From: Arthrobacter sp. StoSoilB5
Lineage (GTDB): Bacteria; Actinomycetota; Actinomycetes; Actinomycetales; Micrococcaceae
Direction of reading: 5' to 3'
Assembly: GCF_019977235.1 (NCBI RefSeq)
Contig: NZ_AP024646.1
Coordinates: 434,001 to 498,000 of the forward strand
Length of the DNA stretch: 64,000 nucleotides
Shown here: piece after piece, positions 23,726-30,884 of the stretch
Layout of the letters: each line of letters opens with the position of its first letter
Position numbering within the stretch: position 1 is the stretch's first letter
Translations under genes and position numbers: made by a program
The notes under the pieces: model-generated
Seen by the model: the letters and a program-made list of their open reading frames with translations, nothing else
The model's database searches: none
Told to the model about the DNA's origin: nothing

Positions 23726-24604
23726 TTACGCGCTGATGGCGGCCTTCGGCACCGCCTTTCGCGAGCTGGCCAGCCGGTCTCTTCCTGAGTAGACATTCAA
23801 GCTGTGTCCCCGGCTGAAACCCACCAGCGTCAGCCCGGTCTCGGTAGCCAGATCAACAGCCAGGCTTGAGGGTGCGCTGACCGCGGACAGGACGGGAATG
23901 CCAGCCAGGGCGGCCTTCTGGACGAGTTCGAATGACGCCCTGCCGGAAACCTGCAGGACCAGGCCAGTCAACGGCAGCAAGTCCTGGCGGAGCGCCCACC
24001 CCACCACTTTGTCTACGGCGTTATGGCGGCCTACGTCCTCGCGCAGGCACAGCAGCTCCGGGATGGGACCGTCTACCTTGAAGAGTCCTGCAGCATGGAC
24101 GCCGCCGGTTCTGTCGAAAACGGCCTGGGTTTCACGGAGGCGCTCCGGTAGCTCGGCGAGGAGATCGACGGGAACGCGTAATTCGTCCAGGGATGGATCG
24201 AAGTGGATGGTCTTGCGCACGGCCTCAATGGAGTCCGTGCCGCAGATGCCACACGAGCTGGAAGTGTAGACGTGGCGCATGGTGTCCGGCATGGGCACAT
24301 CCGGCCGAAGCTGTGCTTCCACCACGTTGAAGGTCTGCATCCCGTCCTTTTCACCAGCACAGAAGCGCAGGGAGACCAGCTCCGAGTGGCTGCGGATGAT
24401 GCCCTCAGATACCAGGAAGCCAGCCACCAGATCAAAGTCATCCCCCGGCGTCCTCATGGTCACGGCGAAGGACGAGCCTCCAATCCTGATTTCCAAGGGT
24501 TCCTCGGCGGCCAGAACGTCCTCCTTGAACCGCACGGGATGTTCGGTGCCCGGCCCGTCCAGTACGAAGCGATGGATTTTCCTGCGCTGCGTCATGCGTG
24601 CCAT
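23726..24604 (-). CDS. fdhD: Formate dehydrogenase accessory sulfurtransferase FdhD
   Basis: A 292-residue FdhD protein, which transfers sulfur to the molybdenum cofactor of formate dehydrogenase. The conserved cysteine motif SSCGICGTDSIE is near residue 120, with EDVGRHNAVDKV and LVLQVSGRASFELVQKA following. ATG at 24604 is preceded by AGGAAGG at eight bases; a second ATG at 24595 overlaps the moeA stop as ATGA and is a possible alternative. It belongs to the glcG-like/fdhA/moeA/fdhD series and supports the fdhF-type enzyme encoded just upstream. Confidence 0.93.
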   Translation of the reverse strand: MARMTQRRKIHRFVLDGPGTEHPVRFKEDVLAAEEPLEIRIGGSSFAVTMRTPGDDFDLVAGFLVSEGIIRSHSELVSLRFCAGEKDGMQTFNVVEAQLRPDVPMPDTMRHVYTSSSCGICGTDSIEAVRKTIHFDPSLDELRVPVDLLAELPERLRETQAVFDRTGGVHAAGLFKVDGPIPELLCLREDVGRHNAVDKVVGWALRQDLLPLTGLVLQVSGRASFELVQKAALAGIPVLSAVSAPSSLAVDLATETGLTLVGFSRGHSLNVYSGRDRLASSRKAVPKAAISA

Positions 24605-25920
24605 CCGGAGTGCCTTCCTCTCTGGTTCGCGGAGCTGATGGGCGCTGTCCACGGCAGCGGCAGGACGGGAACCGGATCGCCAGCCGATACGCCTTCAGGG
24701 GGAACAGCCATGTATCCGTCTGCCCAGGCAAGCCCACGCATCATCCCGGGGCCGATGTGGGAGGCGGGGAACGCGAGTTCGTGGACAAAAGCGCAGGGTA
24801 CCAGCCGTGTTTTTCCCGGGGTGGGTTCCAGGTCGGCGCCGGAGAGCGCGTGCGAGATCCCTTGGAAACGGCGGTTTCCCAAGGCAGCCAACAGGGGTTC
24901 GCCAAGGGTCATGAGTGCCAGCATGGCGGCCAGTGGATTTCCCGGCAGGCCGATGATGAAACGGCCATCCGGAAGTTCCGCCAACACTGCAGGATGACCC
25001 GGCCGCATGGCGATCCCGTCCAGGAGGAGCCGCCCACCGAGCGCCGCCACGGCGTCGCGGAAGTGGTCTGTCCCGGATTTCCCGGTTCCGCCGGTGGTGA
25101 TCGTCACGTCGGGCCGCTCGCCCTGGTGGGCGCCAGCCAGCGCTGTCAGCCACTCATCGTACGAGTCGCCTATCCGGAGCTGGCCACCCGGCACTCCGCC
25201 CAATTGCGAAATGACCGCGTCCAGCTGTGGGCCGAACGCGTCGCGCACCTGGCCCGGTGCAGGCTCACCCGATGTCACTACCTCCGAGCCCGTCAGTACG
25301 ACGGCGACCCTGGGCTTGCGCTGTACGTGCAGGTGATCGTGCCCAGCCACAGCGGCGAGGGCAATGTGTGCAGGGTTGAGGAGCGTCCCTGCGGGTATGA
25401 GGACATCGCCCGCTGTGGCTTCTTCGCCGGCTGGACGAATGTGCCTGCCGGGGAGTGTCTCACCCAGCTTCGCGTCGTGCCTGAGCGAGAGCTGCACGTC
25501 CGCGGAGACCTGCCCACTCTCCTTGCGGAGAATGGCCGTGGCGCCGGGAGGAACCCGCCCACCGGTGGCGATTACGTTGGCTTCACCAGCTGAAAGGGGG
25601 CGGCCCGACTCTGTGATGGTCCATGGACCGCCGCCGTTGATGGCCCAGCCGTCCATGGCCGACGAAGCATAGTGGGGAAGGTCCTGGTGGGCGATGACGT
25701 CGGTGGTCAGCGTGCAGCCGATGGCTTCAGCGAGGGTGACTTTCAAGGACGGGAGCGGTGCGGCGCAGTGGTAGGCCAGCTGCCGTGCTTCCGCCCACGT
25801 GGGTGCATGCTTCCGCTGGAGGCTGGCCGTCAACTCCCGGCTGTGCCTTGACTCCCTGCTGTCAGTCAACTCCTGTTCGTGGAAGAGGGGAGTGCTGGCG
25901 GCGACTTCTTGTGCAAGCAT
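24592..25920 (-). CDS. moeA: Molybdopterin molybdenumtransferase MoeA
   Basis: A 442-residue MoeA that inserts molybdate into adenylylated molybdopterin. The N-terminal region carries DLPHYASSAMDGWAI and the MoCF-biosynthesis core holds VTITTGGTGKSGTDHFRDAV and the motif IIGLPGNPLAAM. An N-terminal extension of about 50 residues is not conserved. The ATG at 25920 follows CAGGAAG. Its stop overlaps fdhD. The presence of dedicated MoeA and FdhD genes argues that the nearby FdhF-type protein is a real molybdoenzyme. Confidence 0.92.
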   Translation of the reverse strand: MLAQEVAASTPLFHEQELTDSRESRHSRELTASLQRKHAPTWAEARQLAYHCAAPLPSLKVTLAEAIGCTLTTDVIAHQDLPHYASSAMDGWAINGGGPWTITESGRPLSAGEANVIATGGRVPPGATAILRKESGQVSADVQLSLRHDAKLGETLPGRHIRPAGEEATAGDVLIPAGTLLNPAHIALAAVAGHDHLHVQRKPRVAVVLTGSEVVTSGEPAPGQVRDAFGPQLDAVISQLGGVPGGQLRIGDSYDEWLTALAGAHQGERPDVTITTGGTGKSGTDHFRDAVAALGGRLLLDGIAMRPGHPAVLAELPDGRFIIGLPGNPLAAMLALMTLGEPLLAALGNRRFQGISHALSGADLEPTPGKTRLVPCAFVHELAFPASHIGPGMMRGLAWADGYMAVPPEGVSAGDPVPVLPLPWTAPISSANQRGRHSGWHA

Positions 25921-26027: not shown

Positions 26028-27245
26028 CTAAGCCTTCACGTAGCCGTTGGGGTTCAGCACGAACTTCGTTGCCGCCCCGGCGTCGAATTCTGCGTAGCCG
26101 CGCGGAGCGTCCTCGAGCGGGATGGCCTTGGCATTGACTGCCTTGGCGATCTGGACCTTGTCGTGAAGGATGGCCATCATCAGCTGACGGTTGTACTTCA
26201 TGACAGGGCACTGCCCGGTGGTAAACGACAACGACTTTGCCCAGCCGGTGCCCAGGGACAGCGAGAGGGAACCGTGCTTGGCTGCCTCGTCAATTCCACC
26301 CGGATCGCCCGTGACGTAGAGGCCGGGGATGCCAAGCGCGCCGCCAGCGGCGGTGATGTCCATGAGGGAGTTCAGTACAGTGGCAGGGGCTTCGTGCGAA
26401 GCGTCCTTTCCGTGGCCACGGGCCTCGAATCCTACGGCGTCCACGCCGCAATCCACTTCGGGTACGCCCAGGATCTGTTCGATCTGGTCCTTCGGGTTTC
26501 CGTTGGACACGTTGACCGTTTCGCAGCCGAATGAGCGTGCCTGTGCCAGGCGGTCTTCGTTCATGTCGCCCACAATCACGACGGCGGCGCCAAGCAACTG
26601 GGCGCCGACGGCAGCAGCAAGGCCCACTGGACCGGCACCGGCGATGTAAACCGTGGAACCTACGCCCACGCCGGCGGTAACGGCACCGTGGAATCCGGTG
26701 GGGAAGATGTCCGAGAGCATGGTCAGGTCCATGATTTTTTCCAGGGCCTGGTCGCGGTCCGGGAAGCGCAGCAGGTTCCAGTCAGCGTAAGGGACCAGGA
26801 CGTACTCCGCCTGTCCACCTACCCAGCCACCCATGTCCACATAGCCGTAAGCGCTGCCGGGCCGGTCCGGGTTGACGTTGAGGCAAATGCCGGTCTTCTG
26901 TTCCTTGCAGTTCCGGCAGCGGCCACAGGAGATGTTGAACGGCACCGAGACGATGTCGCCCACCTTGATGAATTCGACGTCGGGACCCACCTCCACCACT
27001 TCTCCGGTGATCTCGTGACCGAGGACCAGGTCTTGCGGGGCTGTGGTGCGGCCACGGACCATGTGCTGGTCGGAACCGCAGATGTTGGTTGTTACGGTGC
27101 GGAGGATCACTCCGTGCGGCACCTTCCGTCCCACGTTGGCCGGGTTGACGCCCGGTCCGTCCTTGAGTTCGAACGTCGGGTAGTCGGTGTTGATGATTTC
27201 GACGACACCGGGTTCCTTGTAGGCGACTGCTCTGTTTCCGGACAT
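26028..27245 (-). CDS. fdhA: Glutathione-independent formaldehyde dehydrogenase
   Basis: A 405-residue zinc-dependent medium-chain dehydrogenase of the Pseudomonas putida FDH type (NAD+, no added thiol), oxidising formaldehyde to formate. The catalytic-zinc region TNICGSDQHMVRGR and the structural-zinc cysteines SCGRCRNCKEQKTGIC are intact, as is the nucleotide-binding VYIAGAGPVGLAAAVGAQLLG. The ATG at 27245 follows AAGGAG by five bases. It would detoxify formaldehyde released by betaine demethylation. The 171 bp between it and the preceding gene contain a strongly structured RNA element. Confidence 0.95.
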   Translation of the reverse strand: MSGNRAVAYKEPGVVEIINTDYPTFELKDGPGVNPANVGRKVPHGVILRTVTTNICGSDQHMVRGRTTAPQDLVLGHEITGEVVEVGPDVEFIKVGDIVSVPFNISCGRCRNCKEQKTGICLNVNPDRPGSAYGYVDMGGWVGGQAEYVLVPYADWNLLRFPDRDQALEKIMDLTMLSDIFPTGFHGAVTAGVGVGSTVYIAGAGPVGLAAAVGAQLLGAAVVIVGDMNEDRLAQARSFGCETVNVSNGNPKDQIEQILGVPEVDCGVDAVGFEARGHGKDASHEAPATVLNSLMDITAAGGALGIPGLYVTGDPGGIDEAAKHGSLSLSLGTGWAKSLSFTTGQCPVMKYNRQLMMAILHDKVQIAKAVNAKAIPLEDAPRGYAEFDAGAATKFVLNPNGYVKA

Positions 27246-27286
27246 GGACACTCCTTGGTACATATGGCTGGTGCGGAAAATGAATT

Positions 27287-27375
27287 CTGTCCACTTGCCC
27301 GAGAGCGGTGCTTCGATGAGGAATACCTCCCCAGGTTTCAGGCCACCGAAGCACCAGTCACGGACAAGTGGACAG
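27287..27375 (-). ncRNA. Structured leader RNA of fdhA (candidate cis-regulatory element)
   Basis: On the minus strand, 15 bases at 27375-27361 (CUGUCCACUUGUCCG) pair with 27301-27287 (CGGGCAAGUGGACAG): 14 Watson-Crick pairs and one U-G. The plus-strand version would have a C-A clash at that position, which favours a minus-strand RNA. Inside lies a second perfect 9-bp stem, GGUGCUUCG (27355-27347) with CGAAGCACC (27315-27307), and an apical GAGG-UAUU-CCUC (27329-27318). The element ends about 30 bases before the fdhA ribosome site. No known riboswitch class was recognised. Confidence 0.6.
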
Positions 27376-27386
27376 CTTTCTTTTGA

Positions 27387-27412
27387 GGTTGGGCTGCGCG
27401 TGGAGCCCAACC
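27387..27412 (-). terminator. Stem-loop between the GlcG-like gene and fdhA
   Basis: GGTTGGGCT (27412-27404, minus strand) pairs with AGCCCAACC (27395-27387) around eight bases. It starts four bases past the upstream stop and is followed by TCAAAAG, not a U-run, so partial termination or mRNA processing is as likely as full termination. Confidence 0.55.
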
Positions 27413-27416
27413 CCCA

Positions 27417-27839
27417 TCAGAGCTGGGCTGCGCCCTGAAGCTGTACGGCGGCGCCTGCGGACGCTACCGTGTGGTCGTTCTCCACAGTGCTGCCGCTGAC
27501 GCCGATTGCACCGATCACGGTGCCGTCTTCGGCGCGCAGTGGAAGGCCGCCCGGGAAGGTAATGAGTCCGCCGTTGGAGACCTCGATGTTGTAAAGCGAT
27601 CCACCCGGTTGCGAGAGCTCGCCGATTGCGCCCGTGGGCATGTCAAAGAACCGGGCAGTGCGTGCCTTCTTGACGGATATGTCGATGCTGCCCAGCCAGG
27701 CCCCGTCCATGCGGGTGAAGGCCTTGAGGTTTCCGCCGGCGTCCACCACAGCGATGTTCATTGCGGTCTCGGTTTCACGGGCAGCGTCGCGCGCTGCGGC
27801 AAGTACTGCATCTGCTTGGACTTGGGTGATATCAGACAT
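27417..27839 (-). CDS. Cytoplasmic HbpS/GlcG-family protein
   Basis: A 140-residue single-domain GlcG/HbpS protein without a signal peptide: [57 protein letters not shown], and [21 protein letters not shown]. Members of this family bind haem or small ligands; the function in this setting is unknown. ATG at 27839 follows GGAGA. It is the first gene of the series leading to fdhA, moeA and fdhD, behind a GATATATC-containing control region. A second, secreted family member is at 11433. Confidence 0.85.
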
Positions 27840-27938
27840 TGTTTCTCCATTGATTGATGTCTTCATGAACTGGCTGGTCTGCATGGGCCGGATGGTCTGG
27901 AGGGGCCTGGCTGGCGAAGAGCCCGAGCACCCCCGGCC

Positions 27939-27973
27939 CTGATATCTTTGCCGCAACGGGAAAGATATATCAG
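27939..27973 (-). promoter_or_regulatory. GATATATCAG-type inverted repeat upstream of the GlcG-like/fdhA operon
   Basis: CTGATATCTTT (27939-27949) and AAAGATATATCAG (27961-27973) face each other, flanking TTGCCGCAA (27948-27956). Related TGATATAT elements lie on both sides of the GntR gene (36009-36019 and 36837-36847), suggesting one regulator for several units of the island. Confidence 0.6.
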
Positions 27974-28012
27974 TCACATACTATGGCACGAATCACACAG
28001 TGTCCAGAGTTT

Positions 28013-30331
28013 TCAGGCCCTCTCCAGACGAACGATGACGGACTTGGACGTCGGCGTCCCACTGGTATCGGCAACCGAGTCCAGCGGCACAAGGACGTTG
28101 GTTTCCGGGTAATAGGCGGCCGCGCAACCCTTGGGCGTGGAGTAGGAGACGATGCGGAAGTGTTCGGCCCGACGCTCGGTTCCTTGGAATTCGGAAACAA
28201 GGTGGACCATCTCACCATCGGCAAAACCCAGTTCGGTAATGTCCGCTTCATTGATGAGGACTACCCGCCGGCCGCCGTGGATGCCGCGGTAGCGATCGTC
28301 CTTGCCGTAGATGGTGGTGTTGTACTGGTCATGCGAACGGAGCGTCTGCAGGACCAGGCGGCCGGGCGGAGTCTTGATGAATTCCAGCTCGTTGCCCGTG
28401 AAGTGCGCCTTGCCGGATGGCGTATCGAACTTCCTGGCATCCCGCGGAGGGTGGGGCAGCACGAAGCCGCCGGGGTGCTGGATCCGCTCCTCGAAGTTCT
28501 CGAAGCCATCGAAGACGGCCTCGATGTGTTTCCGGATCAGCGAGTAGTCATCCCGCATTGCAAGCCACGCCGCATTCGGCGTATTCGGCAAACGGCTGTG
28601 TCCGTCCGTAAAGAGCCGGTAGGCGAGGTTGCAGACGATGGCTACCTCGGAGTGGAGGTAATCGCTTGCGGGTTTGAGGCGGCCCCGCGAGGCGTGGACC
28701 GCGCTCATGGAGTCTTCCACAGTGACCCTCTGGTCTCCCGTCAGCTGGGTGTCTTTCTCGGTCCGTCCCAAAGTAGGCAGAATCAGCGCCCGCCGTCCCG
28801 TGGAAAGGTGCGAGTGGTTGAGTTTGGTGGAGATCTGGACGCTCAGGTTTGTGTTGGCCAGTGCTTGCTCGGTGACCTCCGAGTCAGGGGCGGCGCGAAC
28901 AAAGTTGCCACCCATTCCCATGAAGAAGCGAACCTTCCCGTCCCGCATGGCGCGGATGGCGGCAACGGTGTCGTAGCCATGCTCGCGTGGTGACAGGAAC
29001 CCGAATTCATGGTCCAAGCGGTCGTGGAATTTCTCCGGCATCTTCTCGAAGATGCCCATGGTGCGGTCACCTTGGACGTTCGAGTGTCCGCGCACCGGGC
29101 AAACGCCGGCGCCGGGCTTGCCGATGTTGCCTTGGAGCAGCAGGACGTTGACCACGTCCCGGAGCGTGGGAACCGAATGCTTATGCTGCGTCAGCCCCAT
29201 GGCCCAGCAGACGATCGTGGCATTCGAAGCCAAAAGCCGTTCACCTGTGGCATGGATCTGCTCCAGGGTGAGGCCTGTGGCTTCAACAATGTCCTCCCAC
29301 GCCACCTTTTCGAGGAATCGCAGGTATTCATCGATGCCAACCGTGTGGTCATTGATGAACCCATGGTCGAGCACGGTGTCCAGGCCAGGGGTCTTGCGGC
29401 CCGCGGTTTCAGCCTCAAGGAGATATTTGCCCAGGCCCTGGAAGAGGGCCTGATCGCCGCCGGCGCGGATTTGCAGGAAATCATCCGTCAGCTGCGTGCC
29501 CACCACCATGCCGGATACATGCTGAGGATTTTCAAAGTGCAGGAGTCCGGCTTCGGGAAGGGGATTGACGGACACGATGATCGCACCGTTCTTCTTTGCC
29601 TTCTCCAAGGCGCTGAGCATGCGCGGGTGGTTGGTGCCCGGGTTTTGGCCTGCCACGAAGATCAGCGACGCCGTCTCCAAGTCCGTCAGGCTGACTGAAC
29701 CCTTGCCGATGCCGATGGTTTCCACCAGCGCGGAGCCGGAGGATTCGTGGCACATGTTGGAACAGTCCGGGAGGTTGTTCGTGCCCAGGCCCCGCACCAG
29801 GAGCTGGTAAACGAAGGCTGCCTCGTTCGAGGTACGGCCGGATGTGTAGAAGACAGCTTGATCCGGGTGGTCCATGCCCCGGAGTTCCCCGGCCATGAGG
29901 TCGTAAGCGGCGTCCCACTCAATCGGCTTGTAGTGGGTGGCGCCTTCATCGAGGAACATCGGGTGGGTCAGCCGGCCTTGCTGGCCCAGCCAGTAGTCAT
30001 CTCGGGTCTTCAGGTCAGCGACGGAGTGCTGGGCGAAAAACTCCGGCGTGACCCGGCGTCGGGTGGCTTCCTCGGCAACAGCCTTGGCGCCGTTCTCGCA
30101 AAACTCCGCGGCATTTCGCTTTTCATGCTCGGGCCAGGCGCAGCCCATGCAGTCGAAGCCATCGATCTGGTTCACTGCCAGCAGCGTCTGCACGCTCCGA
30201 ACCGGACCCATTTGTTCCAGCGAAATCTTCAGGGCGTTGGCAACAGCAGGAATGCCGACAGCCTTTGTCTTGGGTTTGGTGACGGTCAGCTTCGACTCGT
30301 CGATGTTTTCACGGGGGGCTTTGGAAGCCAT
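28013..30331 (-). CDS. Formate dehydrogenase-type molybdopterin oxidoreductase (FdhF/YdeP family)
   Basis: A 772-residue molybdopterin enzyme. The N-terminal DCMGCAWPE with Cys61, Cys64 and a later Cys78 suggests an iron-sulfur site. The pair Cys194-His195 in SNMCHESSG aligns with the selenocysteine-histidine pair of E. coli FdhH, so a cysteine-ligated formate dehydrogenase is plausible. The C-terminal dinucleotide domain has NTTIYGKDDRYRGIHGGRRV. No partner electron-transfer subunit is adjacent, so the acceptor is unknown. FdhD and MoeA genes are close by. It would oxidise formate made by PurU or FdhA. Confidence 0.85.
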   Translation of the reverse strand: MASKAPRENIDESKLTVTKPKTKAVGIPAVANALKISLEQMGPVRSVQTLLAVNQIDGFDCMGCAWPEHEKRNAAEFCENGAKAVAEEATRRRVTPEFFAQHSVADLKTRDDYWLGQQGRLTHPMFLDEGATHYKPIEWDAAYDLMAGELRGMDHPDQAVFYTSGRTSNEAAFVYQLLVRGLGTNNLPDCSNMCHESSGSALVETIGIGKGSVSLTDLETASLIFVAGQNPGTNHPRMLSALEKAKKNGAIIVSVNPLPEAGLLHFENPQHVSGMVVGTQLTDDFLQIRAGGDQALFQGLGKYLLEAETAGRKTPGLDTVLDHGFINDHTVGIDEYLRFLEKVAWEDIVEATGLTLEQIHATGERLLASNATIVCWAMGLTQHKHSVPTLRDVVNVLLLQGNIGKPGAGVCPVRGHSNVQGDRTMGIFEKMPEKFHDRLDHEFGFLSPREHGYDTVAAIRAMRDGKVRFFMGMGGNFVRAAPDSEVTEQALANTNLSVQISTKLNHSHLSTGRRALILPTLGRTEKDTQLTGDQRVTVEDSMSAVHASRGRLKPASDYLHSEVAIVCNLAYRLFTDGHSRLPNTPNAAWLAMRDDYSLIRKHIEAVFDGFENFEERIQHPGGFVLPHPPRDARKFDTPSGKAHFTGNELEFIKTPPGRLVLQTLRSHDQYNTTIYGKDDRYRGIHGGRRVVLINEADITELGFADGEMVHLVSEFQGTERRAEHFRIVSYSTPKGCAAAYYPETNVLVPLDSVADTSGTPTSKSVIVRLERA

Positions 30332-30363: not shown

Positions 30364-30884
30364 AAGGTCGTTGAAGCTGTAGACGTGGAAGCCAGCGAAC
30401 AGCGGATGGTCGGCAAGTGCCATGTGAACGTCGCTGATCAGGCCGGAGCTGTCGTAGCGCAGGACGTCGCCGCCACCCAGGAGGGCCTTGGCCATTCCTG
30501 TGCCGCGGGCCAACTTGGCGAGAACTCTTCCGAGAAGGCCTTGACGTCCTCCATGAGCTGGCCGCTCCAGGAATAGGGACCGGCCGGGGTGCTGCGGTCT
30601 CCGGCAATGAGGAAAAGTTCCGAGACGCCCTCGTGGCGCAGTTGCTTCAGGAACAAGTGCAGCTCAGCCTGGCTTGCGATGCTCCGTGCAGCCAAGTGCG
30701 GGACAACGTCGTAGCCGAGCCGGGCGAGTTCAACCGACGCAGCCACAGTCCTGGCCGGACCATGATGCGGCAGGCACGTCACGCTGACCATGCCCGGTGC
30801 TTCGTATGCGAGGGGCAGTTGACGGGCAAGGCCAGCGGATGGGCTTACCTCCAGCCGAACCGGGACGCCGGATTCCGGGTTCAT
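30364..30884 (-). pseudogene. Methylenetetrahydrofolate reductase-like gene, internally deleted and frameshifted
   Basis: The first 110 residues (RLEVSPSAGLARQ, APGMVSVTCLPHHG, VPHLAARSI, LFLIAGD) look like the N-terminal half of a methylene-THF reductase. Near 30515-30510 the frame fails (…AFSEEF then unrelated SPSWPAAQ), while the typical C-terminal segment (ALADHPLFAGFHVYSFNDL) continues in another frame. About 100 central residues are missing, so an internal deletion with net frameshift best explains it. It starts two bases after folD and runs into the fdhF-like start. Loss of reductase would stop methyl-THF formation from this locus. Confidence 0.7.

Follow-up and report, generated by a model that had tools for sequence, protein, structure and literature searches.

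A conserved RNA hairpin associated with formaldehyde and one-carbon genes in Arthrobacter and related bacteria

The window analysed here, a stretch of 64,000 nucleotides from Arthrobacter sp. StoSoilB5, contains a minus-strand gene array in which fdhA, encoding a glutathione-independent formaldehyde dehydrogenase (26028-27245; TIGR02819, 756 bits, cut-off 637), is followed downstream by a moeA-like gene (24592-25911) and fdhD (23726-24613; NF001943, 334.5 bits, cut-off 269), and is preceded by an HbpS/GlcG-like gene (27417-27842; PF03928, 134.2 bits, cut-off 25) and a gene for an oxidoreductase of the FdhF/YdeP family (28013-30331; TIGR01701, 954 bits, cut-off 582). The same array also holds demethylase/oxidase-like, FchA-like, FolD-like, IclR-type, and BCCT genes. 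FdhA, FdhD, the FdhF/YdeP and BCCT subfamilies, and the HbpS-like protein score above curated cut-offs, and all other names in the array, including that of the moeA-like gene, reflect similarity below such cut-offs. An ORF of 148 aa without Pfam match (30438-30884) is located between the FdhF-like gene and folD. Directly downstream of the HbpS/GlcG-like gene and upstream of fdhA, the minus strand contains an 89-nt hairpin (27287-27375), so that the intercistronic position given in the initial annotation is correct for this genome; as also stated there, the hairpin ends about 30 nt ahead of the ribosome site AAGGAG of fdhA (27251-27256, predicted unpaired probability 0.61; ATG at 27245).

From 27375 to 27287, the minus strand forms one long unbranched hairpin. 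The outer stem P1 (5' arm 27361-27375, 3' arm 27287-27301) comprises 15 bp with one U-G pair, exactly as had been reported, and is followed by a 5x5 internal mismatch that can accommodate two pairs and by the inner stem P2 (5' arm 27344-27355, 3' arm 27307-27318), whose nine perfect base pairs had also been recognised and which reaches 12 bp with G-U pairing. The apical part reads GCCUGAA-ACCU-GGGG-AGGU-A-UUCCU. Here a GAGG/CCUC hairpin had been proposed, but both the fold and all 31 aligned sequences favour ACCU-GGGG-AGGU (P3, 27325-27336): the GAGG/CCUC pairing is found in 84% of cells with zero two-sided changes and is unsupported, whereas ACCU and AGGU are paired in 100% of cells and three of their four pairs never vary. 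The segment CCUGGGGAGGU is invariant in 31/31 aligned sequences, and the P3 12-mer is exact in 104 of the 113 loci described below. The element alone folds at -60.7 kcal/mol (z -8.5) and the 126-nt stretch around it at -76.1 kcal/mol compared with a shuffled mean of -42.0 (z -10.1), with none of 200 shuffles as good in either case. In all five copies folded, a single fold dominates: the ensemble energy lies within 1.5 kcal/mol of the minimum, and the hairpin is retained in the centroids. A separate 9-bp stem-loop past the stop codon of the HbpS/GlcG-like gene (27387-27412, minus strand), previously described as preceding the element, is indeed present in the window, but by eye it was not seen in the three best-matching relatives (L010-L012) and was therefore left out of the conserved element. 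No T run lies behind it.

A nucleotide search of 198 genomes of the genus (E up to 6.1e-5, copies counted by hand) detected the element in 118 genomes with a total of 122 copies, four genomes having two each. Thirty loci were retrieved by this search and 80 by place, and 109 of these 110 contain the element (it is absent from L116); the 109, which are part of the 122 genus copies, together with four from another genus of the family constitute the 113 loci used throughout. With a covariance model, the element was found in four of 297 genomes of the order, all from its own genus, and in 15 of 295 genomes of the family (11 from its own genus and four from one other genus), in addition to one and two chance palindromes, respectively; these searches applied stricter filters and scored 14 candidates per genome, so that weak copies may escape. 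Weak matches in G307 and G649, like that in L116, were discarded as chance palindromes once read. An exact-pattern scan of 84,980 species returned 69 stretches, which come only from Arthrobacter, Pseudarthrobacter, Paenarthrobacter, and Sinomonas. True copies score 59-99 bits under the covariance model; at the lower end, the copy of Sinomonas gamaensis (L138) is related by its core and its score of 59.1 bits, folds weakly (z -2.7, 3/200 shuffles as good), and may be decaying. In agreement with the previous statement that no known RNA class fits, no family of Rfam 15 exceeds its gathering cut-off in the window, and the sole match of the element itself is mir-1001 (21.4 bits, 100 required). None of the titles and abstract openings covered by our literature search, which lay outside most subscription papers and preprints, describes such an element before fdhA. 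A 94% identical element is carried by a 1.0-Mb plasmid of Arthrobacter sp. StoSoilB13 (L226; NZ_AP024649.1, 458252-458341), whose record is unannotated around this place.

Covariation was examined in a MAFFT alignment (A1) of 31 of the 107 distinct sequences, picked at under 91% identity, with L095 and L113 set aside owing to an insertion. Compensatory changes in related genomes, the check that the initial annotation had proposed, are evident: 18 of 36 pairs show two-sided changes, doubly changed cells number 62 compared with 19.5 in shuffles and at most 29 in slid versions, and none of 500 shuffles equals the alignment on any of five measures, all of which drop when the partner strand is slid. 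These changes are characteristic of P1, whose letters vary while pairing is largely kept; P2 and the apical hairpin are nearly fixed in sequence, and the sequence constraint is centred on P2, the 5' side of the apical loop, and P3. On the minus strand, G-U cells outnumber A-C cells by 96 to 12 in the 31 sequences, and the RNA strand is therefore the minus strand, as had been argued from the wobble pair in the outer stem. The covariance model, whose training sequences include this copy, likewise gives 99.4 bits on the minus strand and 48.1 bits on the opposite one. Judged from the aligned copies, pairing of the outer stem is under selection on the minus strand.

The same data bear on two readings that do not involve an RNA element. 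Because the DNA is nearly palindromic, a mobile or DNA-level palindrome (REP/MITE, operator, or cruciform) was considered, but it appears very improbable: the element has one copy in the genome, other matches elsewhere extend to at most 30 bases, its copies are tied to one-carbon genes, its sequence changes while pairing persists, and the G-U excess is confined to one strand. Instead of the many dispersed copies of REP/MITE sequences, there are 122 copies over 118 genomes. The other reading takes the hairpin as part of a protein, namely an in-frame N-terminal extension of FdhA within the ORF 26028-27410, whose frame is open into fdhA and looks protein-like (VRDWCFGGLKPGEVFLIEAP). We give it practically no credence, as the distance between the P2 arms is spread over all three mod-3 classes (52, 29, and 32 of the 113 loci) and the first position of the family model aligns with residue 2 of the protein starting at 27245. 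Since indels in relatives break the frame, this open frame is best regarded as an annotation trap.

The gene following the element is fdhA in 72 of the 113 loci (including a remnant in L096 and a two-piece copy in L115), a moeA-like gene in 30 (including L051, which also retains fdhA pieces, and L104 and L105, which were counted on a moeA or fdhD match), and neither in 11. The gene preceding it is fdhF-like in 59 loci, folD in 21, HbpS-like in 11, demethylase-like in three, and none of the window's genes in 19, and in several loci a folE-like gene appears by eye to intervene upstream. The earlier suggestion that the element controls fdhA only is thus at odds with the 41 of 113 loci in which another gene or none of these follows, and also with the 43 of 118 element-bearing genomes that have no listed copy of the linked fdhA type, although three of them (G091, G094, and G132) retain broken fdhA pieces. 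A pure fdhA leader fails at the 30 moeA-like loci. The 11 loci with neither fdhA nor a moeA-like gene downstream raised the possibility of a pure 3'-UTR element belonging to the upstream operon; this reading fails at 17 loci in which the element precedes fdhA with none of the window's genes upstream; in the nine of these 17 that were read by eye the upstream genes appear unrelated, and in four named loci of this kind an opposing gene follows fdhA.

The proposed tie to one-carbon metabolism is borne out by gene content. Each of the 118 carriers encodes FchA (folate cyclohydrolase; E up to 1e-60) or FdhA of the linked type, and of the 124 genomes with either one, 118 contain the element and six do not; the Fisher values for this co-occurrence ignore shared ancestry and are descriptive only. 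This co-occurrence implies that the element belongs to the pathway and not to fdhA alone. Two elements and two FchA copies each are present in G062, G111, G129, and G138, and two FchA copies with one listed element in G102. Two sorts of FdhA can be distinguished, 78 listed copies with at least 92% identity and others with at most 91%. The element lies directly upstream of 74 of the 78 (places compared by hand); the four exceptions have no upstream element, and in G035 and G026 the element is found before the moeA-like gene. In G182 and G041, the element is missing between the fdhF-like gene and fdhA, and the ribosome site and genes are retained, so that it is dispensable there. None of the 16 stretches examined upstream of second-type fdhA (at most 91% identity) contains the element, the highest model score being 19.7 bits. 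In six of the 16 (L231, L232, L233, L235, L236, and L237), a different long hairpin of the ACGGAAGGYCTGA...TCAGGCCTTCCGT type is located within some 80 nt ahead of second-type fdhA, with apparent compensating changes by eye. On these comparisons among genomes, the hairpin is a real conserved RNA family with a defined structure, strand, and pathway link.

Further observations concern where its transcripts might begin. Upstream of the HbpS-like gene in the window, a perfect palindrome CTGATAT...ATATCAG (CTGATATATCTTT-N-AAAGATATCAG, 27939-27973), the sole exact site in the genome, adjoins a promoter-like TGGACA-17-TAGTAT on the minus strand (27978-28006; one found in 27240-28040, 0.1 expected). 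With two mismatches allowed, the palindrome (CTGATATATC...ATATCAG) is present upstream of the element in 56 of the 113 loci; the site in L084 looks like a chance match. Its distance from the element is about 2 nt or less in 11 loci and reaches about 700 nt in others. In the other 57 of the 113 loci, it was not found in the retrieved stretch. It is perhaps the operator of a putative regulator. By eye, a GntR-type-like gene is located near the palindrome in L096. With this arrangement, the element would be part of the leader in some genomes and would follow one gene in the window genome.

Among the 11 loci with neither gene downstream, an MFS transporter gene follows the element in nine, six of the own genus and three of Sinomonas type, with a conserved TTGACA-type block ahead of it. 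Since this block separates the element from the same-strand transporter, an obvious downstream target is lacking at these nine loci, yet the element is still well folded there, and by eye a compensated change in P1 is seen in the copies of Sinomonas type. The block, CTTGACATTGAGTGTGACCTAGCGCACGATTTTGTTGCAT..., is promoter-like by eye and lies between the element and the MFS gene in L066, L071, L076, L086, L087, L089, L134, L135, and L136. L066 retains an apparent moeA-like remnant (by eye), and part of the neither-gene class therefore reflects recent loss. Although possibly remnants, these loci argue against a simple role as a leader.

It is conceivable, though in our judgement unlikely, that the element is a riboswitch whose apical loops bind formate, a folate-bound one-carbon unit, a molybdenum-cofactor precursor, sarcosine, or betaine and which controls fdhA or the moeA-like gene and fdhD. 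Riboswitch classes usually precede different genes of one pathway, which is also true of the element, and a conserved core flanked by a covarying stem is found as well. However, direct support for the metabolite sensing suggested in the initial annotation is lacking, and no expression platform was recognised: the terminator scan, which covered the window, found no intrinsic terminator, short T runs occur soon after the element in 15 of 113 loci (window included), and the fdhA ribosome site is not clearly buried, with a mean unpaired probability of 0.48 and values below 0.3 in only three of 71 fdhA loci. A weak terminator role may exist in some genomes. The variable spacing between element and start codon (about 26 to 155 nt), the one dominant fold in five copies, the confinement to one bacterial group, the 11 loci with neither gene after the element, and the element-free G182 and G041 also argue against a riboswitch. 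Among the closest described systems is the Moco RNA motif, a candidate molybdenum-cofactor riboswitch, which also precedes molybdenum-cofactor genes and has a conserved core and covarying stems; its multistem junction is surrounded by as many as five paired elements, and it has a GNRA tetraloop with its receptor and apparent expression platforms (PMC2408646). In contrast, the element is a single unbranched hairpin with a GGGG loop (31/31) and no platform seen. The branched P1-P5 architecture and the GNRA tetraloop/receptor that define the motif (PMC2408646) are lacking, and there is no Rfam match, so membership in the Moco RNA motif was rejected.

The good fold that persists where a transporter with its own promoter-like block follows, and a core that stays constant whatever the neighbours, would suit a small RNA cut from leader, intercistronic, or 3' positions of one-carbon messages and acting in trans on other mRNAs. 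A precedent is s-SodF of Streptomyces, a small RNA derived from the sodF 3' UTR (PMC3919588); like it, the element would be released from the mRNA of an enzyme in an actinobacterium. Its release would be hypothetical, and the one target tried, second-type fdhA, was negative: using one fixed 27-nt core and mononucleotide shuffles, complementarity went beyond 95 of 100 shuffles in only one of 16 genomes (L232, with two of 100 shuffles as good). Action in trans on second-type fdhA thus gives no consistent signal over the 16 genomes, and we think a released small RNA rather improbable. An alternative is a plain double-stranded processing or stabilising stem (an RNase III site or barrier) with no specific partner. 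Stabilising 5' hairpins of mRNAs and intercistronic RNase-processing stems such as those of ompA and puf are not known to require a strictly conserved apical sequence. The element resembles such stems in being a stable stem in a leader or between genes, with a long duplex containing a short internal mismatch, and the occurrence by eye of a different hairpin before second-type fdhA in six of 16 stretches is compatible with this reading; it differs from them in its strictly conserved apical sequence. A plain stem leaves the conserved P2 sequence and apical hairpin unexplained, and it seems to us an unlikely account.

The fixed stem and tip sequence resembles a recognition site and no classical switch was seen; for these reasons, we tentatively prefer, at somewhat less than even probability, a hairpin in the mRNAs for betaine demethylation and formaldehyde and formate metabolism whose tip is bound by a putative trans factor and which sets message stability or processing. 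In falling order of probability, it is placed ahead of the riboswitch, the plain duplex, and the released small RNA. Both recognition by the factor and its effect on the message are what we infer. The hairpin would be transcribed within the mRNAs of this betaine-demethylation/formaldehyde/formate module, ahead of fdhA when this gene is on its own and between genes in longer arrays. A putative trans-acting factor, protein or RNA, might then bind the invariant tip, which the outer stem would display while blocking or directing RNases, and the stability or processing of the surrounding message would thereby be adjusted, presumably altering the amount of FdhA or of formate-dehydrogenase maturation proteins. 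Structured mRNA elements recognised by a protein are known in actinobacteria, including Arthrobacter, in the form of ANTAR targets, which consist of two stem-loops with hexanucleotide loops carrying A1 and G4 (PMC8164766). The element has one stem and a four-base loop. It was accordingly rejected as an ANTAR-target RNA, since the two stem-loops with hexanucleotide loops that define this class (PMC8164766) are absent.

A well-supported RNA family outside Rfam, with more than 100 examples, is thus tied to a single toxic-intermediate pathway of common soil bacteria. With its narrow distribution, its invariant tip, and no switch in sight, it is a promising starting point in the search for an undescribed actinobacterial RNA-binding regulator or a new sensing RNA. 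As a speculation to which we assign a low probability, it could be the first RNA class dedicated to formaldehyde stress, sensing formaldehyde, formate, or a folate- or cofactor-bound one-carbon intermediate, directly or via an RNA-binding protein, and controlling formaldehyde dehydrogenase and formate dehydrogenase maturation. Genomes without the element between the same genes (G182 and G041), together with changes of partner genes, offer natural comparisons for experiments. In Sinomonas gamaensis (L138/L193), the element comes after genes for a transporter resembling ProP and a betaine oxygenase resembling GbcA, neither of which reaches curated cut-offs, and in L054 a folE-like gene precedes it (by eye).
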